Below, piece after piece: positions 24,493-53,553 of a stretch of 64,000 nucleotides of DNA; position 1 is the stretch's first letter; each line of letters begins with the position of its first letter. The position numbers were made by a program, and so were the translations under genes. The notes under the pieces were generated by a model that did no database searches, was not told where the DNA came from, and worked only from the letters and a program-made list of their open reading frames with translations. Origin of the DNA: Bauldia sp. (GTDB lineage Bacteria > Pseudomonadota > Alphaproteobacteria > Rhizobiales > Kaistiaceae); contig JAHCJY010000004.1 of NCBI GenBank assembly GCA_026126065.1, positions 310,001 to 374,000 of the forward strand, read 5' to 3'.

Positions 24493-26637
24493 CTACGCCG
24501 CGGCCCCCGCCCGTTCCTCGATCGGCGCCTCGGCAACCAGGACCATCACCTCGGCCTCCGACACGGCGCGGACGGATTCGAACGTCGCGACGGTTTCCGG
24601 ATCGGTGGGCTCGCGGTCGGTGACGACGACGGCAACACCTGCGCCCGGCCCGAGCAACGGCAGCATCTCGGAGCCGATGTCGTAGACGACGTGGTCGTAG
24701 GTGTGATCGAGGGCGGTCACCAGGGTCGTCATGCGATCCCCGTCCATCATGTCCGACAGCCGGCGCCGGCGTCCGGCGGGAATGAAATGGGCCGGCGAGG
24801 CCCGGTCGCGGAAGATGACCTGGGCGAACGACGCGTCACCCGCGAACAGGTCGCCGAAGCCGGACAGATTGCCCGCCTCGCCCATCGCCATCCGGTCCGC
24901 CTCGTCGCCGTGGAGGTCCACCAGGAGGACGCGCGCGCCGGTCCGGGCGAGCGCGCGGGACAGCGCGACGGCGGCGAGCGGACGCCCGCCATCCGCCGCC
25001 GAGGGCGTCATGGTGATGAGGACGCGGCGGGCTGCCATCGTGCGGATGTGAGCGGCCATGCCGGCGAGCGCCTCCTCGACCTGTGCGGCGAGGGCATCGA
25101 CGCCCGGATCGCGCGGCATCATGCGCCGAACATCGCCCCCCTCCGACCAGCGAACGGGTTCGGATGCCTCGGCGGGCTGGAGCGGCGGCGCCGCGACGAC
25201 GGGCGGCGGCACCACAATTGACGCGGGCTGCGCGACGAAGACCGGCCGGGTCGCCCGACCTGAGGCGAGTTCGCGGACCAGAACGATGGCGGCGCCCAGC
25301 ATCATCACGACGAGCGCCGCAATGATGCTCATCGGCACCGGCTTCGGATAGGACGGATCGAGCGGCGGGGCGGCGGGCGATACCACGCGGACGTTCACCG
25401 GCAGGAAGCTGGCGTTCTGGCGCGAGACCGCTTCGCGCGAGAGGGCCAGATAAGTCTCGAGGAGGTCGCGCTCGGCCGTCGCTTCGCGCTCGAGTGCCCT
25501 GAGCTGGACCTCGGCCTGGTTCGACGTGGCGGCGGCGGCGCGGAGCTCCGTCTCCGTCGCGGCGAGCTGCGCCTCGTAGTTCCGCGCGAGTTGCGCCTCC
25601 GTCTCGAGGCCGGCAAGGACGTTCCGCGCTTCGGCGCGGACGGCCTCCGCGATGTCGGCCAGCTGTGCGTTCAGTTCGCGGATACGGGGATGGCCCGGCA
25701 TCAGCGTGGCCGACGCCTCGGCAATCTGGCTCCGGATCGCGACCTCCTGCTGGCGGAGATTGGCGACGACCGGCGAATTGAGAATGTCCAGCGACGAAAG
25801 CGCGCCGCCCTGTTCGAGGGTCGTCCGGATGAGCGCCGCCTTCGATTCCGCCTCGGCGCGGGTGGTACGGACGCGGGCGAGTTCGGCCGACGCATCGGCG
25901 AGCCGCTGCGTGGTGATCGTCACAGCCGCATTCTGGCCCGCGAGGAACAGATTGTTGTCGGCCCGGAAGGTCTCGACGGCCTCTTCCGCCGCGACGACGC
26001 GGGCCGAGAGTGCATCGATCTCGGCGCGGAGCCAGTCTGTCGCCACCGCGGTGGCGGAGCGCTGAACCTGGCGTTGCTGCGCGATGTACTGCGCGGCCAC
26101 CGCGTTGGCGATGTCGGCGGCGAGCTGCGGGTCGCCGGCCTCGAAGGCGATCGAGATGACGCGCGTGTCGGTGATCGGATTGACGCTCAGCCGGCTCAGG
26201 AAGTCGGCAAGGACCACCTCCCCGACCGGCGCCGACGGTCCATCGTCGCCGAGCCCGACCATGCCCATGACACGGTCGATGAGGCCCGGCTCCTTGAGCG
26301 AGGGATCGAAATCCGGATGGGCTTCGAGGCCAAGCTGCGCGATGACGGCGAGCGCCACGTCGCGCGAGCGGATGAGTTGCACCTGGCTGGCGACACCCTG
26401 CTGGTCGAGGAGCGCTGCCCTCGTCGCGGCATCGTCGGCGCGGGTGATATCGGTCTCGTCGCCTTCGATGAGGAGCGTCGTCTCTGCGCGGTACACCGGG
26501 TCGGCCAGATTCAGCACGTAGTACACGCCGGCCGCCGCCGCGATCGCGAGGAGGATCAGCAGCGGCAGCTTGCGGAAGACGGAACGGAAGACCGTCCCGA
26601 GATCGATTTCCACATCGCTGGCGTAAGTATTGCTCAT
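24493..26637 (-). CDS. GumC/Wzz-type exopolysaccharide chain-length protein with degenerate kinase domain
   Basis: The 714-residue protein begins with the Wzz domain (first membrane helix about residues 24-43) and continues through long periplasmic coiled coils. The second membrane helix follows a proline-rich PSYPKPVPMSI. It ends in a cytoplasmic domain of the bacterial tyrosine kinase fold. That domain keeps the Walker A'-like strand VLLVDLHGDE and a Walker B-like VVYDIG. The Walker A lysine region is gone: where GxxGEGKT is expected it has SAADGGRP (residues 546-553). There is no tyrosine cluster at the C-terminus. It probably sets chain length and spans to the Wza protein encoded divergently, without kinase activity. 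Confidence 0.9.
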   Translation of the reverse strand: MSNTYASDVEIDLGTVFRSVFRKLPLLILLAIAAAAGVYYVLNLADPVYRAETTLLIEGDETDITRADDAATRAALLDQQGVASQVQLIRSRDVALAVIAQLGLEAHPDFDPSLKEPGLIDRVMGMVGLGDDGPSAPVGEVVLADFLSRLSVNPITDTRVISIAFEAGDPQLAADIANAVAAQYIAQQRQVQRSATAVATDWLRAEIDALSARVVAAEEAVETFRADNNLFLAGQNAAVTITTQRLADASAELARVRTTRAEAESKAALIRTTLEQGGALSSLDILNSPVVANLRQQEVAIRSQIAEASATLMPGHPRIRELNAQLADIAEAVRAEARNVLAGLETEAQLARNYEAQLAATETELRAAAATSNQAEVQLRALEREATAERDLLETYLALSREAVSRQNASFLPVNVRVVSPAAPPLDPSYPKPVPMSIIAALVVMMLGAAIVLVRELASGRATRPVFVAQPASIVVPPPVVAAPPLQPAEASEPVRWSEGGDVRRMMPRDPGVDALAAQVEEALAGMAAHIRTMAARRVLITMTPSAADGGRPLAAVALSRALARTGARVLLVDLHGDEADRMAMGEAGNLSGFGDLFAGDASFAQVIFRDRASPAHFIPAGRRRRLSDMMDGDRMTTLVTALDHTYDHVVYDIGSEMLPLLGPGAGVAVVVTDREPTDPETVATFESVRAVSEAEVMVLVAEAPIEERAGAAA

Positions 26638-26850
26638 CGAACTCGGGCCTACGAAGTCGTCTCGGCAGCAAGAACTATGGTGAGCGGTATCCTAACGACG
26701 CGCTCCCCATTCAACAGGGTATTCATCGAAGTTAATATTCGATGAAGCTAGTCTGCCGACCTCACAACCCTACTGCACACCTGCTTTACGGAACATTAAC
26801 CATGAACGCCAAGATTGGCGGACAGAACAGACCCGTCGCGCACGGCCAGC
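26638..26850. promoter_or_regulatory. Divergent regulatory region of the exopolysaccharide genes
   Basis: The 213 bases between the Wzz gene (minus) and the Wza gene (plus) are clearly more AT-rich than the coding flanks, as expected for two facing promoters. No specific operator could be assigned. This one region probably controls both transport components. Confidence 0.55.
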
Positions 26851-27411
26851 ATGAATCTCGTCCGCCTCATCAGCTGCCTGGCTGCGCTCACGATTCTGGC
26901 CGCCTGCGCGACGACGCCGCCGGCGCCGACGGGCGGCGGGCCGCAACCGTCAATGCAGCTCCTCCTCGACAGCGGCGACCAACTCCGGGTCGTCGTCCTC
27001 GACCAGGCCGACCTCACGGGCACCTACATGGTCGACGAGAGCGGCCGGATCGCGATGCCCCTCGTCGGCCAGATCCAGGCACGCGGCCGGACAGCCGAGA
27101 GCCTCGAAGGCGTCATCGCCGCGGCCCTCAGGCAGAACTACCTCCGCAACCCGGACGTCACCGTGAGCGTCGAGACGTTCCGGCCGGTGTTCGTTCTCGG
27201 TGAGGTCGCCTCGCCTGGCCAGTACCCATATGTCGCCGGCCTCACCGTGCAGCAGGCCGTCGCGATCGCGGGCGGCTTCACGCCGCGGGCGCGGCAGACC
27301 TTCGTGGAGGTCATCCGCCGGGTTGACGGACGTCCCGTCCCGCTCCGGCTCGAACTCCTCGATCCCGTCGTGCCGGGCGACACGATCACCATCGGGCAGA
27401 GGCTGCTTTGA
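26851..27411 (+). CDS. Polysaccharide export lipoprotein, Wza/GumB-like
   Basis: A short (186-residue) outer-membrane export protein. It has a lipoprotein signal with lipobox ILAAC (cysteine about residue 16), the Poly_export domain (LDSGDQLRVVVLDQADLTGTYMVDESGRI, LVGQIQARG) and one SLBB domain (VFVLGEVASPGQYPYVAGLTV). It would form the outer-membrane channel for the polymer and dock to the Wzz protein. ATG 26851 is chosen because it begins the signal peptide. Its end overlaps the glycosyltransferase start by four bases (TTGA). Confidence 0.93.
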   Translation: MNLVRLISCLAALTILAACATTPPAPTGGGPQPSMQLLLDSGDQLRVVVLDQADLTGTYMVDESGRIAMPLVGQIQARGRTAESLEGVIAAALRQNYLRNPDVTVSVETFRPVFVLGEVASPGQYPYVAGLTVQQAVAIAGGFTPRARQTFVEVIRRVDGRPVPLRLELLDPVVPGDTITIGQRLL

Positions 27412-28580
27412 GCGATGACCGCAGCACAGAAGCGGCCGGCCCGCTCCGCATCGTCCACTGCTTCCGCAATCCGATCGGCGGACTCTTCCGGCATGTCCGC
27501 GACCTCTGCGGAGCGCAGGCGCGCGCCGGACATATGGTCGGCATCGTATGCGATTCCACGACGGGCGGCGCATTCGAGGAGAGGCTCTTCGCCGAGCTTT
27601 CCCCTGCCCTCGCCCTTGGCCTTCACCGGGTTCCGATGGAGCGCAGCATTGCGCTCTCCGATCTCTCCGGCGCGCGGCGCGTCCATCGCGCCGCCAAACC
27701 CCTTTCCCCCGATGTGCTGCATGGGCACGGCGCCAAAGGCGGCGCCTATGCCCGCATCGGAGGCACCTTCTTGCGGGCATCTGGTAATCGCGTAGCCCGC
27801 ATCTACACCCCGCATGGCGGCAGCCTGCACTACGACCCGAAGCCGCTGAAGAACCGGGTCTACTTCATGGCCGAGCGCGTCCTCGAGACGATGACGGACG
27901 CGTTCATCTTCGTCAGCCGCTACGAGGCGAACGCCTACGCGACCAAGGTCCATCCGCCGAAGCCGATCGCGAAGATCATCCCGAACGGCCTTCGCGAGGA
28001 GGAGTTCGTGCCGGTCCAGCCGGCGGCGGACGCAAGCGACTTCCTCTATGTCGGCATGCTGCGCGACCTGAAGGGCGTCGATGTCTTCATCGGCGCCCTC
28101 GCGCTGCTTCGCGACCGCGGCCACCCGTACACCGCCAACATCTTTGGCGCCGGCGACGATGCCGAGCGCTACCGGGCGATGGTGGCCGAGCTTCGCCTGG
28201 ACGACGCGGTCGCCTTCCATGAGCCGACGCCGGCACGAATCGCTTTCGCCACGGGCCGCGTCCTCGTCATCCCGTCGCGCGCCGAATCGATGCCCTACAT
28301 CGTGCTCGAGGCCGCCGCGGGAGCGATCCCGATGATCGCCACGCGAGTCGGCGGTATCCCCGAGATCTTCGGCGACAAGTCCGACCGGCTGGTGGAGCCG
28401 GGGAGTATCGATTCCCTCGCGGCGGCGATGGAGGCGGCAGCCGCCAACCGTGCCGCAGCGGAGCGCATGGCGGCCGATCTCCGCGACGAGGTCCGCCAGG
28501 TCCACACCGTGGACGCCATGGCAGCCGGCGTGGAAGGCGTCTATCGGGCGGCCATCTCGCGACGCCGCGGTGCAGCGTGA
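27408..28580 (+). CDS. Glycosyltransferase family 4 protein
   Basis: A retaining GT-B glycosyltransferase of 390 residues. The N-terminal half opens IVHCFRNPIGGLFRHVRDL, with a glycine-rich acceptor loop. The C-terminal half carries FLYVGMLRDLKGVDVFIGAL and the nucleotide-sugar motif RAESMPYIVLEAAA (the E-x7-E type). It transfers a sugar to the growing lipid-linked repeat at the inner face of the membrane. The donor is not evident. The TTG at 27408 overlaps the stop of the export protein gene. It is the only non-initiating glycosyltransferase in the locus, so the repeat unit is either simple or completed by enzymes encoded elsewhere. Confidence 0.92.
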   Translation: MSDDRSTEAAGPLRIVHCFRNPIGGLFRHVRDLCGAQARAGHMVGIVCDSTTGGAFEERLFAELSPALALGLHRVPMERSIALSDLSGARRVHRAAKPLSPDVLHGHGAKGGAYARIGGTFLRASGNRVARIYTPHGGSLHYDPKPLKNRVYFMAERVLETMTDAFIFVSRYEANAYATKVHPPKPIAKIIPNGLREEEFVPVQPAADASDFLYVGMLRDLKGVDVFIGALALLRDRGHPYTANIFGAGDDAERYRAMVAELRLDDAVAFHEPTPARIAFATGRVLVIPSRAESMPYIVLEAAAGAIPMIATRVGGIPEIFGDKSDRLVEPGSIDSLAAAMEAAAANRAAAERMAADLRDEVRQVHTVDAMAAGVEGVYRAAISRRRGAA

Positions 28581-28718
28581 CGGAAACGGTCGCTTAACCG
28601 AGAATCCCAACAAGTGGGCGGGTTAATCCTAACCTGTAAAACTGTAGCGATCGGCGCAAGGCACCGTTAGCCGCGCTGTTCGCAATGTCCGGCCCATGTC
28701 CCGCGCCGGGCTCTTCTC

Positions 28719-30257
28719 ATGAACGACCTCCAGTCACCGGGTCAGTTCACCACGCGAGCGGTCGTTGCCACGGCCGCCATGCGTGGTGACACCGCCGTGT
28801 CCAGACCGCTGTCCGACGAAGCGCGGCTGATCGCGAACGGGCTCGCCAGCGGATCCATCTCCGCGACGCTCCTCACCGGCTCCGTCCGGCTGTTCGAGTT
28901 CGCCGCGATCATCGCGCTGGCCCTTGGCATCTACGCGTTTCATGTCGTGCCTGTCGAAGGCCTCGACCTCTGGTACGCCGTCCCCGTCCTTCTCGGCGCC
29001 ACGCTCGCCACGATCCTCATCCAGGCGGCTGACGGCTACACGGTGCCGTCGTTCCGAAGCCATATCCGGCAGATCTGGCGGATCTGGGCCGCGTGGGCGC
29101 TGGTCTTTGCGATCTTCGCGGTGGTCGCCTTCCTCACCAAGACGGGCGCCTATTTTTCGCGCGGCTTCTTCGTCGCCTGGCTGCTCTTCGGGTTCGCCTT
29201 CTTCGCCCTGTTCCGCATGGGGCTGTCGGCGGTAGTCCGAGGCTGGACGCGGAACGGGCGGCTCGAGCGACGCGCCGTCATCGTGGGCGGCGGCCAGCCC
29301 GCCGCTGACCTGATCGCCGCGCTCAAGGCGCAGCCGGACAACGACATCCGTATCTGCGGCATCTTCGACGACCGCAACGACGCGCGCTCGCCGCAGACGG
29401 TGGGGGGCTATCCGAAGGTCGGCACGGTGGGCGAACTCGTCGAGTTCGGCCGCATCGCGCGCATCGACATGCTGATCGTGTCGCTGCCGATCACAGCGGA
29501 GAACCGCCTCCTCCAGTTCCTCAAGCAGATCTGGGTGCTTCCGGTCGACGTGCGGCTCTCGGCGCACAGCAACAAGCTCCGCTTCCGGCCGCGGTCGTAC
29601 TCGTATGTCGGCGCGGTGCCGTTCCTCGATGTGTTCGACAAGCCGATCGCCGACTGGGATTCGGTGGTGAAGCGCATCTTCGACATCGTCTGCGGGACAG
29701 GACTCCTCGTCCTGTTCTCGCCGGTGATGCTGCTTGCCGCGCTCGCGATCAAGCTCGATACGCGCGGACCGGTGCTGTTCCGCCAGAAGCGCTATGGCTT
29801 CAACAACGAGGTCATTGACGTCCTGAAGTTCCGGTCGATGCACCACGCGATGGCCGACCCGGACGCCCGAACGGTCGTGACCAAGGGCGATCCACGCGTC
29901 ACGCGGGTCGGGCGGTTCATCCGGAAGACCTCGATCGACGAACTGCCGCAGCTCATCAACGTCATCCGCGGATCGCTGTCGCTCGTCGGCCCGCGCCCGC
30001 ATGCCGTCGGAGCCCACACCGACAGCCGCCTCTGGAACGACGTGGTCGACGGCTATTTTGCCCGGCACCGCGTGAAGCCGGGCGTCACGGGCTGGGCGCA
30101 GATCAACGGCTGGCGCGGAGAGGTTGATACGCCCGAGAAGATCCGCGGCCGCGTCGAGGCTGATCTCTTCTATATCGAGAACTGGTCGGTCCTCTTCGAC
30201 CTCTACATCCTCGCGCTCACCCCGATCCGGCTCTTCACGTCGGAGAACGCGTATTGA
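28719..30257 (+). CDS. Undecaprenyl-phosphate sugar phosphotransferase (WcaJ/ExoY-type)
   Basis: Starts exopolysaccharide synthesis by moving a sugar-1-phosphate from a UDP-sugar to undecaprenyl phosphate. The 512-residue protein has four N-terminal membrane helices, a Rossmann-like CoA-binding fold (RRAVIVGGGQPAADLI), a fifth membrane hairpin, and the catalytic bacterial sugar transferase domain. That domain runs KRIFDIVCGTGLLVLFSPVM, FRQKRYGFNN, LKFRSMH, KTSIDELPQLINVIRGS and LVGPRPHA. The full length matches the glucose-specific (WcaJ) class. Its stop overlaps the start of the polymerase gene. Confidence 0.94.
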   Translation: MNDLQSPGQFTTRAVVATAAMRGDTAVSRPLSDEARLIANGLASGSISATLLTGSVRLFEFAAIIALALGIYAFHVVPVEGLDLWYAVPVLLGATLATILIQAADGYTVPSFRSHIRQIWRIWAAWALVFAIFAVVAFLTKTGAYFSRGFFVAWLLFGFAFFALFRMGLSAVVRGWTRNGRLERRAVIVGGGQPAADLIAALKAQPDNDIRICGIFDDRNDARSPQTVGGYPKVGTVGELVEFGRIARIDMLIVSLPITAENRLLQFLKQIWVLPVDVRLSAHSNKLRFRPRSYSYVGAVPFLDVFDKPIADWDSVVKRIFDIVCGTGLLVLFSPVMLLAALAIKLDTRGPVLFRQKRYGFNNEVIDVLKFRSMHHAMADPDARTVVTKGDPRVTRVGRFIRKTSIDELPQLINVIRGSLSLVGPRPHAVGAHTDSRLWNDVVDGYFARHRVKPGVTGWAQINGWRGEVDTPEKIRGRVEADLFYIENWSVLFDLYILALTPIRLFTSENAY

Positions 30258-31534
30258 CCGTCACGGCTGATGCGGCCGGCGCGCGTCCCGCGCCGCGGCT
30301 GTTCGTCCCGTCGGGGCGGCTCCTCAACGCCGGGCTTGCCCTCGTCGTCTTCCTCGGCGGCTTCGTCATCATAGAACCCGCGCCGTACGAGCTCCTCCTC
30401 ATCGCTCTCATGGCGGTGTGGCTGTTCGCCGGCCTCCGCGTCACGCGCTACGTGCTGCCGCTGATCGTCCTCCTGCTCCTGTATCTCGCCGGCGGGGCGA
30501 TCGCCCTCGCCAACGTGGAGACCCTGTCCAAGCCGCTCGTCTATTTCGGCACCACGATGCTGCTGGCCTTCTCGGCGTTCTTCTTCGCGACGATCATCCC
30601 CGCCGATCCGGAGCGACGGCTCCTTCTCATCATGCGCGCCTACACCTGGTCCGCGGTGATCGCTTCTGCCGTCGGCGTCGCCGGATACGCGCTCGGCATC
30701 GAGTTCTTCACCCTCTACGACCGCGCCCGCGGCCCGTTCCAGGACCCCAACGTCTTCGCGCCGTTCCTCGTGATGCCGCTGTGCTATCTCGCACACCAGA
30801 CCCTGACGCAGCCCCTGCGGAAGTCGTTCTGGCACGTCGTCGGCGCGCTCATCATCACGCTGGCGGTCGTGCTCGCCTTCTCGCGCGCCGCCTGGGCGAT
30901 GGCCGCGCTCGCGCTGGCCGTGACCGCGACCGTCGCATTCATCAACAACCGGAGCGGCCGGAAGCGCCTCCGCATCCTGACCTACATCGGCTTCGGCGCG
31001 GTCGCGATCGTCGCGATCGTGGCGGTGCTTCTCATCCTCCCCGCCACCTCAGGGCTGTTCCTCGAGCGCGCCCAGCTGGTCCAGAGCTACGATGCAGGCG
31101 CGCTCGGCCGGTTCGACCGGCAGCAGCTCGGCTTCCTTCTCCTGTTCGACCATCCGTTCGGCATCGGCCCGTTCGAGTTCGGCAAGCTGTTCGTCGAGGA
31201 CGAGCACAACATGTGGCTGAAGGGCTTCACCGTGTACGGCTGGCTCGGCGGCCTGTCCTACATCGCGCTCGTGGTGTGGACGCTCGTCATCGGCTTTCCG
31301 CTCATGTTCCGCCCCCGGCCATGGCGGGTCGTCGTCATCGCCGCGTTTTCCGCCTATCTCGGCCAGGTCCTCATCCACAACGTGATCGACAACGACCACT
31401 GGCGGCACCTCTTCCTGCTCTATGGCGTCATCTGGGGCGCCTACGCCGCGGAACGCCTCCACCGCCGGAAGCGGGTCGTACCGACGGTCCGGGTGTTCAC
31501 GGCACGCATCGAACGGGCGACGCACGGCACCTGA
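30254..31534 (+). CDS. O-antigen ligase/polymerase-like membrane protein (Wzy_C domain)
   Basis: A 426-residue protein of about eleven membrane helices with the Wzy_C-type large periplasmic loop. It contains the arginine-rich RARGPFQDPNVFAPFLVMPL signature of polymerases and, near the end, FGIGPFEFGKLF and EDEHNMWLKGFTVYGWLG with a conserved histidine. In this context it most likely polymerises the exopolysaccharide repeat in the periplasm. The TTG 30254 start overlaps the preceding stop (TTGA). No Wzx flippase is encoded nearby. The stress-promoter-driven small membrane protein follows. Confidence 0.88.
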   Translation: MTVTADAAGARPAPRLFVPSGRLLNAGLALVVFLGGFVIIEPAPYELLLIALMAVWLFAGLRVTRYVLPLIVLLLLYLAGGAIALANVETLSKPLVYFGTTMLLAFSAFFFATIIPADPERRLLLIMRAYTWSAVIASAVGVAGYALGIEFFTLYDRARGPFQDPNVFAPFLVMPLCYLAHQTLTQPLRKSFWHVVGALIITLAVVLAFSRAAWAMAALALAVTATVAFINNRSGRKRLRILTYIGFGAVAIVAIVAVLLILPATSGLFLERAQLVQSYDAGALGRFDRQQLGFLLLFDHPFGIGPFEFGKLFVEDEHNMWLKGFTVYGWLGGLSYIALVVWTLVIGFPLMFRPRPWRVVVIAAFSAYLGQVLIHNVIDNDHWRHLFLLYGVIWGAYAAERLHRRKRVVPTVRVFTARIERATHGT

Positions 31535-31547
31535 CCGCCCGATCAAC

Positions 31548-31573
31548 GGAACCGCAGGGCCCCGTCCGCCGTT
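31548..31573 (+). promoter_or_regulatory. EcfG-type general stress response promoter
   Basis: GGAAC at 31548-31552 and CGTT at 31570-31573 are separated by exactly 17 bases. That fits the alphaproteobacterial EcfG sigma factor consensus (GGAAC-N16/17-CGTT). It lies about 27 bases ahead of the start of the DUF883-like gene and just past the polymerase stop. Expression of the small protein under general stress is the expected consequence. Confidence 0.75.
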
Positions 31574-31599
31574 TCCCTTCGGCTTCTCCCGAAAGGACA

Positions 31600-31896
31600 A
31601 TGAACATGGCGATCAGCAAGTCGATCCAGGATCTTCGCGAAATGGCGCGCTCCCGCCTCGACGAGGTCGAGGACGCCGGCGCGTCCATCGGACATCACCT
31701 CAGCGACGCCGCGCACACCGTGACCCAGGCGGCCGAGCGCGCGCGACAGACCGGCACCGTCGTCGCCCGCCGTGCCAACCAGGGCGTCCACGAAGTGCAG
31801 GACCAGATCTCCCACCATCCGCTGACAGCGGCATTCCTCGCGATCGGGGTCGGGTTCTTGCTCGCGGCGATCACGCTGCGGCGGAACAAACGATAA
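31600..31896 (+). CDS. DUF883/ElaB-like membrane-anchored small protein
   Basis: A 98-residue protein with an amphipathic helical/coiled-coil body (SKSIQDLREMARSRLDEV to GVHEVQDQI) followed by one C-terminal membrane anchor. The ending HHPLTAAFLAIGVGFLLAAITLRR is the pattern of ElaB/YqjD/DUF883 proteins. E. coli relatives are stress-induced membrane-anchored proteins associated with ribosomes. ATG 31600 has a GAAAGGA site five bases upstream. The GGAAC-N17-CGTT promoter ahead of it agrees with stress control. Confidence 0.85.
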   Translation: MNMAISKSIQDLREMARSRLDEVEDAGASIGHHLSDAAHTVTQAAERARQTGTVVARRANQGVHEVQDQISHHPLTAAFLAIGVGFLLAAITLRRNKR

Positions 31897-32082
31897 GCTG
31901 ACAAGTCGGGGCAGGTTGGTGCCGACATCCGCCACCCTTCGTCACCAAGCGTCGCTTCGAGCAATTCGAGTGAGTAGGTGGCATGGCAACAAATTCGGGA
32001 GTCACGGGGGGCGTGCTAACCTCAAGTTGCCCTTTGAGTTCTCCTCCCATACATTTGGCTGGTTGGTGGTAGGGGATTGGTT

Positions 32083-32826
32083 GTGGCGGACTGGCTGACG
32101 GACCAGGTGCGGCTTACGCTCTTCCTGGAGAAACCGCTCAACGAACACGCCGACGGTGCCTGGCAAGTCACCACCGGTTCTCTTCCGGAGACCGATGTTT
32201 CCAAGCCGCGAGACGCTTCGCGGCGACAAGCAGGCGCGTGGAACGACGGAGTGTTGGCAATCAACACCCAAGCCACTCGCATCGATTGGGTCTATACCCC
32301 TTCTCCCGACGACGGTGGCCCGGCTGGCTTTGCTACCAACGCACCCGAAAGGGTGACAGCATTGGTCGGCGTCGCACATCAATGGCTCGGCAAGATCGGA
32401 GCCAAAGTACTCCGCGCGGCTCTTGCACCAGTATACTATGACCAGGTTGCCGGACGGCTGGAGGGCTATAGGGCAATTGAGGAGCGTGTACCGTGGCTGC
32501 GAGATATTTCTCGTGAGGGCATCTCTGATATTACGCTTCAGATCAACCCTTTGGGTCGAATTGAGCGTCCGCTCCCACTGACGATCAATCGGGTTTCAAG
32601 ATGGGCCGTGGCTGCCGTGAGCCCGTTTACTATCGGAGTTGAAGATGACGCGGTTCGCGCAAACGCTACAGCGGATACCCGTCACTATCTCCGCATCGAT
32701 CTGGATTTGAATACACGGCCAATGGATCAGGCCGCAGTGCGTGAGTTGAACCCTGATGAGGTAGTAGCCATATTGTACGAGTTGGCAGCAGCAGGAATTG
32801 GAATAGCCGAACAGGGCCTGCGTTAG
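32083..32826 (+). CDS. Accessory-cassette protein 1, unknown function
   Basis: I do not recognise this roughly 247-residue protein. It is soluble, with many tryptophan and charged residues. It contains a mid-section WLRDISREGISDITLQINPLGRI and an end in which strands (HYLRIDLDLNT) are followed by a helix (LNPDEVVAILYELAAAGI). The general layout, a beta-rich body ending in a short helix, recalls small stand-alone proteins of mobile or defence cassettes, but no specific family is claimed. GTG 32083 is preferred over TTG 32077 because AGGGG lies eight bases before it. The next gene starts three bases after its stop. Codon use is visibly less GC-rich than the flanking genes, suggesting transfer. 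Confidence 0.55.
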   Translation: MADWLTDQVRLTLFLEKPLNEHADGAWQVTTGSLPETDVSKPRDASRRQAGAWNDGVLAINTQATRIDWVYTPSPDDGGPAGFATNAPERVTALVGVAHQWLGKIGAKVLRAALAPVYYDQVAGRLEGYRAIEERVPWLRDISREGISDITLQINPLGRIERPLPLTINRVSRWAVAAVSPFTIGVEDDAVRANATADTRHYLRIDLDLNTRPMDQAAVRELNPDEVVAILYELAAAGIGIAEQGLR

Positions 32827-32829
32827 TTC

Positions 32830-33474
32830 ATGAGCTATTTCGAACCTCCCCGTACCATCACTGTTGGCGCCACCGATGTGGCTCCGCCACCGATGTTCCC
32901 GTTGGACAGCGAGATATCTCGCACCGAGTCTCGGCTGAGCCGTCGCGTTGCTGGGCGTCGGTCAGGATGGCTTGAGCGGGGCACGTTCTCGCCCACTTGG
33001 AAACGTAACCTTGCGCCGCAGCCGCGCGATCTCCTTCAAGGCTATGAGGCGTACGCCTGTTCCAATTGGGATGCGGATGGTGCTGAGCCTATTCGGCCGG
33101 AGGTTGTCAGATTCGCGCGCGCACTCTTGGCACGACTCCGCCCTTATCAGCGTTCGGAACCTGATCCTGCACCAGGGCCGGATGGATCGATCGGCCTAGA
33201 GTGGTGGTTTGAGGAAGACCACCTCTTCATCGACATCGGTCCCAAAGACTATGTGCATTCTTATATTAGGGCAGCAGGCGTAGCGCGGGAGGATGCGTGG
33301 CAATGGGGGGATCTGGGGCTCCTGAAGCTCCTGAGAGCGAGGTTCGACCTTCTATATCATCGGTCCCCAGTGGCATCTTGGAGTGGATCACCTGCTCTGG
33401 GTGCCGACGAGTTCTCCGGCGACACCTCAGAGATAAGCAGCGACCGTGCAACTGCGAGGTTTGGTATCGAGTAA
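32830..33474 (+). CDS. Accessory-cassette protein 2, NWD-motif protein of unknown function
   Basis: A 214-residue protein. The centre carries YEAYACSNWDADGAEPIRPEV followed by PGPDGSIGLEWWFEEDHLFIDIGP. This resembles a small group of hypothetical proteins with an N-W-D-x-x-G-A-x-P-I motif and an aromatic beta segment. I know of no established function. The last roughly 40 residues are Ser/Ala/Gly-rich and may be a non-conserved tail. ATG 32830 sits three bases after the stop of gene 1, so the two are almost certainly co-translated. Its end overlaps the start region of gene 3 in another frame. Confidence 0.6.
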   Translation: MSYFEPPRTITVGATDVAPPPMFPLDSEISRTESRLSRRVAGRRSGWLERGTFSPTWKRNLAPQPRDLLQGYEAYACSNWDADGAEPIRPEVVRFARALLARLRPYQRSEPDPAPGPDGSIGLEWWFEEDHLFIDIGPKDYVHSYIRAAGVAREDAWQWGDLGLLKLLRARFDLLYHRSPVASWSGSPALGADEFSGDTSEISSDRATARFGIE

Positions 33475-33938
33475 TTTCGGATGATCGCTACCTTCGGGCA
33501 GGACGACTTCATCACTCCGCGTTCAAATCTCGGGCAATAGAGCCACCGCGAAACCCTGAGGATTGGACGTTTGAACTGTCCGGCAGATTGGTGTCGATGT
33601 CGGGCGCAACGGAGCACATCGTTGCCGATGGCGAACGTCGCGCGGAGGAGCGCCGCCAAGGCGCCCTGACTATGAACGTCCCGGTGTCCTCGCACATCAA
33701 GTTCGTTGGCGTTGGCTATGTCACATGCGGCGCCGTCCGCGATTGGCAGTTTTGCGATGCCGAAGCGCGCTATTCTCCACTAGCCGGCGACACCGCGCAC
33801 TCCAACATCGTATTCTTTGGTCTTGAGAATCCGGTGCGCAGCGCTGCGGACTTGGCAAGGCAGATACATGTTGTTGAGGCCTCAGACCTTGCAAAGCTTC
33901 CCATTGAAGGCTTTCTGCGAAGGAGGGAACAAGGGTAG
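33303..33938 (+). CDS. Accessory-cassette protein 3, possible zinc-ribbon N-terminus, unknown function
   Basis: The frame encodes about 210 residues. An early ITCSGCRR and PCNC give a CxxC...CxC spacing that could bind zinc. A strand-rich part follows (EVWYRVISDDRYLRAGRLHHSAF), and then VPVSSHIKFVGVGYVTCGAV. Function is unknown. The start is uncertain: ATG 33303 has a GGGAGG site nine bases upstream but overlaps gene 2 by about 170 bases; TTG 33378 would halve that overlap; a start at ATG 33597 would lose the WYRV segment. Composition matches genes 1 and 2 rather than the core flanks. tRNA-Pro follows 110 bases downstream. Confidence 0.5.
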   Translation: MGGSGAPEAPESEVRPSISSVPSGILEWITCSGCRRVLRRHLRDKQRPCNCEVWYRVISDDRYLRAGRLHHSAFKSRAIEPPRNPEDWTFELSGRLVSMSGATEHIVADGERRAEERRQGALTMNVPVSSHIKFVGVGYVTCGAVRDWQFCDAEARYSPLAGDTAHSNIVFFGLENPVRSAADLARQIHVVEASDLAKLPIEGFLRRREQG

Positions 33939-34048
33939 CGCACCTCTCCTAGCTTTCGAGGTCGCGTTTTCTAGTTAGATCTTGGCTGATGCCTAGGGCT
34001 TGCGTCGGGCCGGCGAACCGCCTACGAACGCCCTGCCCTTGAGGCAGT

Positions 34049-34125
34049 CGGAGCGTGGCGCAGCCTGGTAGCGCACCTGCATGGGGTGCAGGGGGCCGGA
34101 GGTTCAAATCCTCTCGCTCCGACCA
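34049..34125 (+). tRNA. tRNA-Pro (anticodon GGG)
   Basis: A full cloverleaf of 77 bases. Acceptor CGGAGCG pairs with CGCTCCG, followed by discriminator A and encoded CCA. The D-arm has GCGCAGCCTGGTAGCGC. The anticodon stem is CCTGC/GCAGG around loop ATGGGGT, with GGG at 34083-34085. The T-loop is GGTTCAAATC. It reads CCC and CCU proline codons. It lies directly after the accessory cassette. Confidence 0.96.
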
Positions 34126-34175
34126 TTATTCCCCGACGGCACAGGAAACGACAACGGTGTGCCGGCGACGCGGTC

Positions 34176-34784
34176 CTATCGTGCCGCGTCGAGGAGACGC
34201 TTGCATTCGAGCAGTTCGGACAGCATCGCCTCGAGCCGCCGCACGTCGTCGCCCGACAGGGCCGGCGGTGACGCCGCGCTGAAGCCCGGGGCCTCGGGTC
34301 GGTTGGGATCATCACCGCGGAAGAGGTGGTGCGCCATGGCGGCCGCGCCCTCGTCGTCGTCCTCGTCGGCCATGTGCACCGCCGGACTGCGGCCGCGAAC
34401 GGTCGCGTCCTCCTCGTAGGAGGCAGCCTCGTCGTCCCCGGGCTCGAAATCGGCCGGGAGTGGTCCGACGGGCACGCCCTGGGCGGACGCGATCACCGCG
34501 CGGAGCCCCTGCTCCTTGAGGATGCGCTGGACGCCGCGGATCGTGTAGCCCTCGCCGTAGAGGAGATGGCGGATGCCGCGGAGAAGATCGACGTCCTGCG
34601 GGCGATAGTATCGCCGGCCGCCACCGCGCTTGAGCGGGCGGATCTGGCTGAAGCGGGTTTCCCAGAAGCGGAGGACGTGCTGCGGCAGGTCGAGATCCTC
34701 GGCGACCTCGCTGATCGTGCGGAAGGCGTCGGGCGCCTTTTCTTCCCGGCGTGCCTCGCGAGGTCTGTCGCCCGGCTCGTCCAT
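34176..34784 (-). CDS. MerR-family transcriptional regulator
   Basis: A 202-residue regulator with an N-terminal MerR winged helix: [25 protein letters not shown], then [20 protein letters not shown] and [19 protein letters not shown]. The C-terminal half is acidic and lacks the paired cysteines of metal sensors, so a simple DNA-binding role is likely. Its target is unknown. It follows ihfA by eight bases on the same strand; this ihfA-merR order is conserved in Rhizobiales. Confidence 0.92.
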
Positions 34785-34792
34785 CGGCCCCG

Positions 34793-35119
34793 TCAGTCCT
34801 CGACGGCCGCGCCGCTGCCGTTGGCGAGGCCGTGGTTGATACGCTGCTTGAGGACATTGCTCGCCTTGAAGACGAGAACCCGGCGCGGCGAAATCGGAAC
34901 CTCTTCGCCGGTCTTCGGATTGCGGCCGATGCGCTTGCCTTTCGGCCGGACCATGAACGTACCGAAAGAGGACAGTTTCACCGCCTCGCCGCGAACGACG
35001 CAGTCACCGATCTGCCCGAGGACCGTCTCCACGAGGGCCGCGGACTCGGTCCGGGACAGCCCTACGCGTTTGTAGACTGCCTCGCAGAGATCGGCACGCG
35101 TGATCGTTTTGCCGCCCAT
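34793..35119 (-). CDS. ihfA: Integration host factor subunit alpha
   Basis: A DNA-bending nucleoid protein of the HU/IHF family, 108 residues. The body reads [25 protein letters not shown]. The flexible DNA-binding arm carries [12 protein letters not shown] with the conserved intercalating proline, then [15 protein letters not shown]. It works as a heterodimer with IhfB. ATG 35119 gives a short extension (MGGKT) before the family start. It lies downstream of fabH on the same strand, in the usual plsX-fabH-ihfA order. Confidence 0.95.
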
Positions 35120-35262
35120 CGTCCCCTTGCCCCGCCGGTGACCCGCACACCGGACGACGCGGCAAGATCGGCCGCCCGCCCAACGATGAGACCCTATTCA
35201 TCCATTTTGGGACGGTCAACACGAATGGCCGCCAAGCACATGAGACTTAGGAGAAAATCGCG

Positions 35263-36231
35263 CTACCAGCGCAGCAGGACCGCGCCCCAGGTGAAGCCGC
35301 CCCCCATCGCCTCGAGAAGGACGATGTCGCCCTTCCGGATACGTCCATCGTCGACCGCGACCGACAGGGCCAGCGGAATCGAGGCCGCCGACGTGTTGCC
35401 GTGGAGCGCGACCGTGCGGACCACCTTCTCATCGGCGATGCCCAGCTTCCTGGCGCTCGCATCGATGATGCGGATGTTGGCCTGATGCGGCACGAACCAG
35501 TCGATCCGGTCCGCATTCAGTCCCGTCAGAGCGAACGAATCCTCGATGACGTCGGTGATCATGCCGACGGCGTGACGGAAGACCTCCTTGCCCTCCATCC
35601 GGAGGTGGCCGACCGTGCCCGTCGAGGACGGGCCGCCGTCCGCGTAGAGCTTGTCCTGGTGACGGCCGTCCGAGCGGAGGCGCGCGGCAAGAACGCCGGA
35701 GGCGTCCGGGTCGTCGCCCTCCTCCCGCTGCAGCACGACCGCACCGGCGCCATCCCCGAAGAGGACGCATGTGGTGCGGTCGGTCCAGTCGAGGAGACGC
35801 GACATGGTCTCGGCGCCGATAACCAGTGCGCGGCGCGCGAGGCCGGCCTTCATCATCGAATCGGCGGTCGCGATGCCGAAGACGAAGCCGGAACAGACGG
35901 CCTGGATGTCGAATGCGGCGCCGTGGGTCATGCCGAGCTTGGTCTGCACGGCGACGGCTGTCGCGGGAAAGGTCTGGTCCGGCGTCGTGGTGGCGACGAT
36001 GATGAGGTCGATGTCGTCCGGGGTCAGGCCGGCGGCGTCGAGCGCACGCCGCGCGGCATTGGTCGCCAGATCGGAGGTCACCTCGCCTTCGGCAGCAATG
36101 TGCCTCTGGCGGATGCCGGTTCGCTGGACGATCCACTCGTCGGACGTATCGACCATCCGCGAGAGTTCGTCATTGGTGAGAATCCTGGCCGGAAGGTAGC
36201 TGCCGGTGCCGACGACGACGGAGCGGGCCAT
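35263..36231 (-). CDS. fabH: 3-oxoacyl-ACP synthase III
   Basis: Starts fatty acid synthesis by condensing acetyl-CoA with malonyl-ACP. The 322-residue thiolase-fold protein has the active-site cysteine in [13 protein letters not shown], the histidine in [13 protein letters not shown] and the asparagine in [13 protein letters not shown]. The N-terminus reads [18 protein letters not shown]. The start codon follows the plsX stop directly (TAG then ATG), so the genes are tightly coupled. Confidence 0.97.
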
Positions 36232-51670: not shown

Positions 51671-52489
51671 ATGCCCGTCTCCCGCGCCGATCTCATTGCC
51701 GATCTCCGTCGCCTCGGCGTCGCACCGGGGCAGAGCGTGATGATCCATGCCTCGGTGCGGGCGATCGGCCCGGTGTTCGGCGGTCCCGACCAGATTCACC
51801 TCGCGGTGGCCGACGCCGTCGGGCCGGAGGGCGGCGTGCTGATGTATCTCAGCGTCCCGGACGGGATGGACGACATCGGCCGGGGCGTGTTCCCGGCCGA
51901 GGAAGAAGTCGCCATGCGCCAGAACATGCCGCCTTTCGACCCGGCCACGGCGCGGGCGGCCCGCGACCACGGCGTACTGGCGGAGTTCTTCCGGACGTGG
52001 CCGGGCACAATCATCACGCCGCATCCGACGCGGTTCGGGGCTCGTGGCGGTAAGGCTTCGGCCCTGCTCGCGGACCAGCCGTGGGACTTTGCGCTGGGTG
52101 CCGGCTCGCCACTCGACCATCTGTGCGCGGATGGCGGCAAGGTCCTCCTCCTTGGCTCCGACCACGACGCGGTGACGCTGCTCCACTACGCCGAGCACAT
52201 TGCGGATTTCCCCGACAAGATCATCACGCGATTCGAAGTGCCGATGCTGCGGGACGGCGAGCGGGTGTGGATGCCCTGCCTCGAGGTCGATTCGAACCGG
52301 GCGCATGCGAGTTGGCCGGACCGGTTCTTCGCGACGATCGTCGATCGGTTCGTTGAGGCGCGCGTGGGGGCGGGCGAGGCGAAGGTCGGGCGCGTGGGTG
52401 GGGCAGAGTGTGTGCTGCTCGATGCGGCGGCGCTGGTCGCTTTCGCGGTGCCCATCATGGAGGCTCAGGCGAAAAGCCAAGGCGTCTGA
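51671..52489 (+). CDS. Aminoglycoside N(3)-acetyltransferase family protein
   Basis: A 272-residue member of the AAC(3) family: [17 protein letters not shown] near the N-terminus (acetyl-CoA binding), [16 protein letters not shown], and [36 protein letters not shown]. Enzymes of this fold acetylate aminoglycosides at N3, but chromosomal members often act on unknown small substrates. Resistance is therefore possible but not shown. The GC-rich composition equals the core genome. ATG 51671 follows a weak site. Confidence 0.9.
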
Positions 52490-52605
52490 GTGTCACAAAA
52501 TCAGTCAGTCGCTATCCAGACCACGGCCAACTCAGCAGGAGCGTGCACCCTTTGGTCTGTGTTAGCTGTGCGAGTTGGAGAGAGGCAAACCAGCCGAGGG
52601 TTGTG

Positions 52606-53553
52606 GTGAAGAAACCTGTTCCCGGCATATCGCGTTCGAAGACCAAGTCTAGCAAGAAGACCTCCGAACGTAGGCCGCAGACGCCCATCTCGCTCTCGGC
52701 AAGCGCAGGTGTTGAAGCTTCCGCTCGCTACGTTCGCGAGCGCAAGACGACCGAGGTCATTCCGCCTGACGTCACGCGAGCAAAGTCCCGCGCTTGGCTC
52801 GATCTGATCTCGCCCATCACGGAGTGGGCGGGTCTGAAAGGTGACAAGCTTCGCCACAAGCGCGATCTGCTTCGACTGCAGCGGGAAGACACTCTTACTC
52901 AGATTGTCTCGCGCGCAATGGAACAAGTAGGAGGCAGTCCCACGAGACCCGTTCCAGTAAAGTTCTTGGTCCCGTTTCTTGAGCAAGCGTCTCTGGAAGA
53001 ACCCGACTCAGCTCTCGTCGAACTGTGGGCGAATTTGCTGGCGACTGCAGCTGAAGAATATGATCCTAGACACGTTCATTTTTCCAGCATCATGTCGCAA
53101 ATTTCTTCAAACCAAGCTTCGGCATTTCGAACACTCCTATTCGTCACCAGCGAACGGGATTTGGAGTTCGCACGAGATGCAGTGACGCAGGATTACCTTC
53201 CGCAGAGGATTCAGCGCTTTCTAGTGGAAAGCCTCCGCGGCCGGGAGGCCAATGTTAGTATTGATAGCTTCCTAAGTGCCGTTGAAGCTGTCTTCAATAT
53301 TCACGGGATTGAAGTAGTGTACATATCGGTAAATGAAGGCGACGCATCATACGAATCTGACCTATGGTACTCCAATTATTCCGACTCCACGGAGGCTGAC
53401 TATGAAATACTTGAGGCGGTTGGACTAGTTCGACGCGTTGAGGCTGAAGTGTCAATCGGAAGGTTCGAGCTGTACGGGGCCTACTATGCAATGACTGCCC
53501 TCGGATATCACTTTGCCAAGGCCTGCAAGGTGTTTGTGTCTGAATCGGTATGA
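52606..53553 (+). CDS. Abi-alpha (DUF4393) family protein, possible phage-defence factor
   Basis: A 315-residue protein with a basic N-terminus (SRSKTKSSKKTSERR, residues 9-23) and a helical core. The core section VKFLVPFLEQASLEEPDSALVELWANLLATAAE (residues 118-150, key residues FLEQASLEE and LWANLLA) matches the Abi-alpha/DUF4393 family, which has been linked to abortive infection. That section is followed by HVHFSSIMSQIS. The rest is strand- and aromatic-rich. GTG 52606 is preferred (GAGGG five bases upstream). Codon use is distinctly AT-richer than its neighbours, and the gene ends one base before era, so it is probably acquired. Defence is inferred from family and context, not shown. Confidence 0.78.
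   Translation: MKKPVPGISRSKTKSSKKTSERRPQTPISLSASAGVEASARYVRERKTTEVIPPDVTRAKSRAWLDLISPITEWAGLKGDKLRHKRDLLRLQREDTLTQIVSRAMEQVGGSPTRPVPVKFLVPFLEQASLEEPDSALVELWANLLATAAEEYDPRHVHFSSIMSQISSNQASAFRTLLFVTSERDLEFARDAVTQDYLPQRIQRFLVESLRGREANVSIDSFLSAVEAVFNIHGIEVVYISVNEGDASYESDLWYSNYSDSTEADYEILEAVGLVRRVEAEVSIGRFELYGAYYAMTALGYHFAKACKVFVSESV

Follow-up and report, generated by a model that had tools for sequence, protein, structure and literature searches.

The closest described relatives of the locus presented here are a candidate defence system and an orphan protein family. PDC systems are unpublished PADLOC candidates (PMC11811056), one of which, PDC-M32, was reported from Sinorhizobium prophages (PMC12429752). 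The family TIGR04255 (NCBIfam sporadTIGR04255) has no assigned function and was named in no paper found in the searched open-access literature. A module is defined here in which A is a TIGR04255 protein, B a protein of the W-D-G type and C a small protein with an invariant histidine; this A-B-C cassette is widespread and apparently undescribed. Here we present three genes of Bauldia sp. that follow the same plan behind a first component of another appearance, located in a stretch of 64,000 nucleotides, referred to as a whole as the window.

The trio shares with the TIGR04255 operons the gene order (B protein second, C protein third), the sporadic distribution and the mobile context, but differs in gene 1, which has no TIGR04255 match (E≤1, profile-profile). 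Regarding PDC-M32, the B domain corresponds to approximately residues 260-366 of PDC-M32A, whereas the trio lacks the N-terminal 250 residues of that protein and no relative of PDC-M32B was seen; a complete system consists of full-length PDC-M32A and PDC-M32B, and only gene 2 of the trio matches PADLOC. Judged from sequence, the trio does not qualify as a PDC-M32 system or, by the defining test, as a TIGR04255 operon, and the C-terminal part of PDC-M32A is its only such link to defence. Fic, SocA/Panacea, RelE/HTH and BrnA genes are likewise small accessory cassettes at the same tRNA-Pro gene in relatives; unlike these, the trio consists of three genes, shares no domains with them and contains no known toxin.

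The trio occupies positions 32077-33938, entirely on the plus strand, with reading frames that are open and intact in the ORF list. Gene 1 (32077-32826) encodes 249 amino acids, or 247 if the alternative start GTG 32083 is used, and is followed after 3 nt by gene 2 (32830-33474, 214 amino acids), which carries NWDADGAEPI at residues 79-88 (positions 33064-33093). Gene 3 (33297-33938, at most 213 amino acids) has its best start at GTG 33297, with GGGAGG just upstream, and contains CSGC at residues 33-36 (33393-33404) and CNC at residues 51-53 (33447-33455). The initial annotation had described three tightly spaced plus-strand genes with 3 nt between the first two, which the ORFs confirm, and both motifs that it named, the second as a CxxC...CxC start, were located. 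Its tight spacing of gene 3 is right as to closeness, but gene 3, read from its best start, in fact shares 178 nt with the end of gene 2, in a different frame.

The lower GC content reported relative to the flanks is borne out for most neighbours: both whole-gene GC and third-position GC of the trio are 0.58-0.59, against a third-position GC of 0.82-0.92 in the EPS, MerR, IHF, FabH and PlsX genes and 0.71 in a small gene at 31604-31896. The GC content of the trio lies below that of all 311 tiles of 1850 bp in the window, where it is the lowest-GC stretch. A second low-GC dip (0.54) was observed at 52408-53553 by an Era-like GTPase gene; it contains a gene of 300-381 amino acids, which may be of the DUF4393/Abi-alpha type.

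Searches of genes 1-3 against Pfam and NCBIfam yielded zero matches at E≤1, in agreement with the earlier statement that no family was recognised for these genes; they match no characterised family. A confident PADLOC or PHROG match was found for none of them; PADLOC has no models for A or C proteins, and no known toxin or antitoxin domain was detected in the trio with Pfam, NCBIfam, PADLOC or PHROGs. Integrative elements at tRNA genes are recognised by an integrase and flanking att repeats. In agreement with the initial annotation, no integrase was seen among the ORFs listed for 29.5-36.5 kb; direct repeats of at least 14 nt flanking the trio were not found either, so no att repeats were seen.

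A gene 1 search of 297 genomes of the order yielded a single relative (G094, E-value 1.2e-7), which has all three genes in order; the scan of species genomes assigned its locus to Mesorhizobium sp. B2-4-15. Identities to the window trio are 28, 37 and 38% for genes 1, 2 and 3, respectively. In this copy genes 2 and 3 abut without overlap, and the last 13 nt of a tRNA-Thr gene are shared with the third gene. Just upstream of the Mesorhizobium trio lies a small gene (L005, 7194-7700) that appears HEPN-like by eye, with a sub-threshold match to DUF6432 (0.18). Profile searches of hundreds of genomes of the class and phylum revealed no further trio with gene 1, the close subfamily being rare; the window proteins found no relatives in a direct search of plasmids and viral contigs, and a gene 3 scan across 84,980 species genomes returned Mesorhizobium only.

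The wider module was reached through gene 2. A profile built from the two gene 2 sequences found three loci in other families, each of which encodes first a TIGR04255 protein, then one of the W-D-G type and then a third protein. A TIGR04255 search of the order and class then gave 29 loci that were read, 21 with A-B-C order, six in which A is accompanied by an HTH gene, a C-D motif protein (e.g., SQTCDI or SQDCDL) or both, and two of neither type; a 22nd A-B-C trio, next to a mobF relaxase, comes from a Mycobacterium plasmid. Leave-one-out profiles recovered A in 22/22, B in 22/22 and C in 20/22 cases at E<1e-3 (the two missed C proteins scored 0.001 and 0.052), and among the 202 neighbouring ORFs used as decoys the best value for B and C was only 0.09; the 'decoy' that matched the A profile is itself a TIGR04255 gene. 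The trio thus occurs as a unit elsewhere, whole in Mesorhizobium and as the A-B-C module at 22 loci, and the earlier proviso that it might be found in no other genome does not hold. TIGR04255 is distributed patchily (17 of 250 genomes in the class and 11 of 150 in the order), and TIGR04255 and B searches of viral contigs gave no confirmed case. The scattered distribution and the low GC content point to horizontal spread of the module. The genome of the window itself (G000, contig C3) contains a true TIGR04255 gene paired with a 'SQDCDL' protein rather than with B and C (L038, 9815-10606 and 10943-11566).

Gene 2 is the B protein of the trio, in second position. It matched a profile of 22 B proteins with an E-value of 1.9e-10 (best decoy 0.31), and hhalign gave 6.7e-10. 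B proteins are short, have no recognisable domains and yielded chance-level matches only when their profile was used to search the PDB; they resemble the C-terminal part of PDC-M32A with E-values down to 1.2e-8, and PADLOC reports a weak partial match of gene 2 to PDC-M32A (1.2e-3) over residues 273-341 of 375. On an Acetobacter persici plasmid (L028, 7896-8789), two tandem domains of the W-D-G type were observed within one protein, followed by a gene annotated SspB, another partner of the B domain.

Gene 3 is assigned to the C proteins, as third gene, on the basis of its Mesorhizobium ortholog, the gene order and the invariant histidine; the window protein alone scored 2.7 against the C profile, which is no match. 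The ortholog (38% identical) scores 2.9e-6 as a C protein, and His168 of gene 3 (33798-33800) corresponds to the one histidine that is invariant in C proteins (24/24), in which an arginine and a serine are mostly conserved and a Cys-rich start is found in a subset. Matches of C to granzyme A in a PDB sequence search were weak and were judged to be due to chance. An AlphaFold2 model of gene 3, built from two sequences, had a pLDDT of 32.

Gene 1 occupies the A slot, where the 22 A-B-C loci have TIGR04255. Neither NCBIfam nor hmmsearch or hhalign gave a signal between the two (E≤1; profile-profile), and either homology below detection or a non-homologous replacement may account for this. A PDB sequence search returned no structure related to gene 1 or to the A profile, and an AlphaFold2 model of gene 1, built from two sequences, had a pLDDT of 35. 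In PHROGs, gene 1 has a weak match (7e-3) to a family without function; phrog_15160 was considered as a bridge to TIGR04255 and dropped, as 0 TIGR04255 proteins matched it. A supposed relative in G278 was likewise dropped, its weak match falling within an unrelated gene. Besides Mesorhizobium, a relative of gene 1 was found in G376 (7.6e-20), accompanied by two other partners, one of them weakly HEAT-like. A cyanobacterial plasmid has the order TIGR04255 gene, weakly HEAT-like gene, third gene, and the first 60 residues of this third gene resemble the third gene of G376 (24% over 63 residues, E 0.024, a single comparison); the two HEAT-like proteins have no BLAST match to each other. If this likeness holds, it would be suggestive of the gene 1 family replacing TIGR04255 in two operon types. 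Partner sets of TIGR04255 other than B and C comprise HTH and 'CD' proteins, HEAT-like proteins and a zeta toxin.

Most copies of the module are chromosomal. A tRNA gene lies within 300 bp of the cassette at four (G096, G066, G068, G346) of the 19 trio loci that were scanned for tRNAs, i.e., those found via TIGR04255 or gene 2, besides the window and Mesorhizobium. Assuming 45-80 tRNAs per 4 Mb, proximity in 4/22 would be expected with a probability of only about 1e-5 to 1e-4, and is thus above chance. Other neighbours include a C5 DNA methylase and a resolvase (G046), a 29-copy CRISPR array about 500 bp away (G037), a phage integrase gene in the same region or element (G049), and a Toprim gene with further phage-type genes (G056); several copies (G094, G066, G536) are found among ordinary core genes. 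This defence-type context was read by eye from the neighbours at about 20 loci and is uncontrolled for neighbour content. TIGR04255 also occurs without B and C in a database entry labelled Acinetobacter phage (HTH and CD type), on a Vibrio parahaemolyticus plasmid (L111, 158-2105), where it is followed by a hypothetical gene and then by a zeta toxin gene, and on a Crinalium plasmid with restriction-modification genes about 3.4 kb away.

The tRNA gene said to stand beside the trio was identified with ARAGORN and Rfam as tRNA-Pro(GGG), at 34049-34125 on the plus strand, 111 bp past gene 3. It is followed by a MerR-type regulator gene (34176-34784, minus strand), the conserved right flank, which 24 of 26 relatives possess. 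The closest relative (G001, 84-85% DNA identity) aligns by blastn to 26003-31884 and 34044-36033 of the window; in place of the variable interval that holds the trio (31885-34043) it has a different segment of about 1.1 kb, in which a gene for a Fic-domain protein is found (Pfam, 1.5e-15), in accordance with a small acquired cargo cassette by a tRNA gene. At the same tRNA-Pro(GGG)/merR/ihf site other relatives carry SocA/Panacea (G002), BrnA (G005), RelE with an HTH gene (G037) and GIY-YIG (G008), whereas G007 has kept the tRNA gene with no toxin-antitoxin-type or nuclease gene. Such a gene thus accompanies tRNA-Pro in five of the six relatives that retain the tRNA there, which marks the site as a cargo hotspot. 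Cargo is found on either side of tRNA-Pro, and in three relatives (G002, G007, G037) the tRNA gene is inverted relative to merR, so that the hotspot itself has been rearranged; inverted copies were recorded at L067 (1807-1883), L071 (1958-2035) and L072 (1757-1833), in comparison with 34049-34125 of the window.

With regard to function, the context makes the trio a plausible anti-virus or toxin-type system. The defence or toxin role suggested in the initial annotation is partly supported, by context: relatives carry Fic, Panacea, BrnA, RelE or GIY-YIG genes at this site, and CRISPR, methylase and phage-type neighbours occur elsewhere. The alternative suggestion of a surface-related role was rejected, since in no sampled relative is the module linked with genes for exopolysaccharide; G001 has kept the EPS genes and has no trio. 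Our preferred reading, somewhat short of probable, sees in the trio a diverged copy of an A-B-C operon that is mobile and widespread and would act like anti-phage or toxin-antitoxin cargo. It is possible, if doubtful, that there is a whole undescribed family of mobile immune or toxin-type modules, with a single A slot that can be filled by TIGR04255 or by the gene 1 family and with alternative partner sets (W-D-G and His protein; HTH and 'CD' protein; HEAT-like and third protein; zeta toxin), of which the window trio would be a variant with A replaced or diverged beyond recognition. As A pairs with several unrelated partner sets, A or gene 1 may be the subunit that senses or controls, combined with effectors that can be exchanged, and as no residue other than His168 is common to all C proteins, C is the best effector candidate. 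Gene 1 would then sense a trigger or keep the complex inactive, gene 2 would be the connector coupling A to C, and infection or the loss of an inhibitor would release gene 3 as the effector, leading to a growth stop or a phage block.

The same cargo can be read as stabilising rather than defending. The relatives' genes at this site are mostly of the toxin-antitoxin type, copies exist on plasmids and within mobile elements, and the gene overlaps suggest coupled translation, all as expected of an addiction module in which C or B is a toxin neutralised by its partners and phage protection is incidental; however, an addiction module of three genes and 600-700 residues would be a large one, the trio has no known toxin or antitoxin domain and most copies are chromosomal, and we consider this explanation rather unlikely. 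Similarly improbable is a regulatory or stress-related accessory module that has neither a defence nor a toxin role and is carried along by mobile DNA: the HTH gene of the second type of TIGR04255 operon and the several copies among core genes would fit, but the patchy distribution, the alternative partner sets and the hotspot cargo neighbours suit conflict systems better. That the three genes cluster by accident, or that gene 3 is no real gene, might be concluded from the 178-nt overlap and the missing C-profile match of gene 3 alone, but is very improbable: an accidental cluster is contradicted by the ortholog trio in Mesorhizobium, where the order is kept at 28-38% identity for all three genes, and gene 3 is there free of overlap with gene 2 and itself a C protein, while in the window GGGAGG precedes its GTG.

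TIGR04255 is annotated in many bacteria without a function, and most of the copies examined belong to a three-gene mobile module with alternative partner sets and neighbours of the defence type, so that the orphan family becomes open to testing as a system. With the window copy, the module gains a version whose first component is unrecognisable, and the tRNA-Pro/merR/ihf site is a hotspot for cargo of the toxin-antitoxin type in the relatives of this bacterium.
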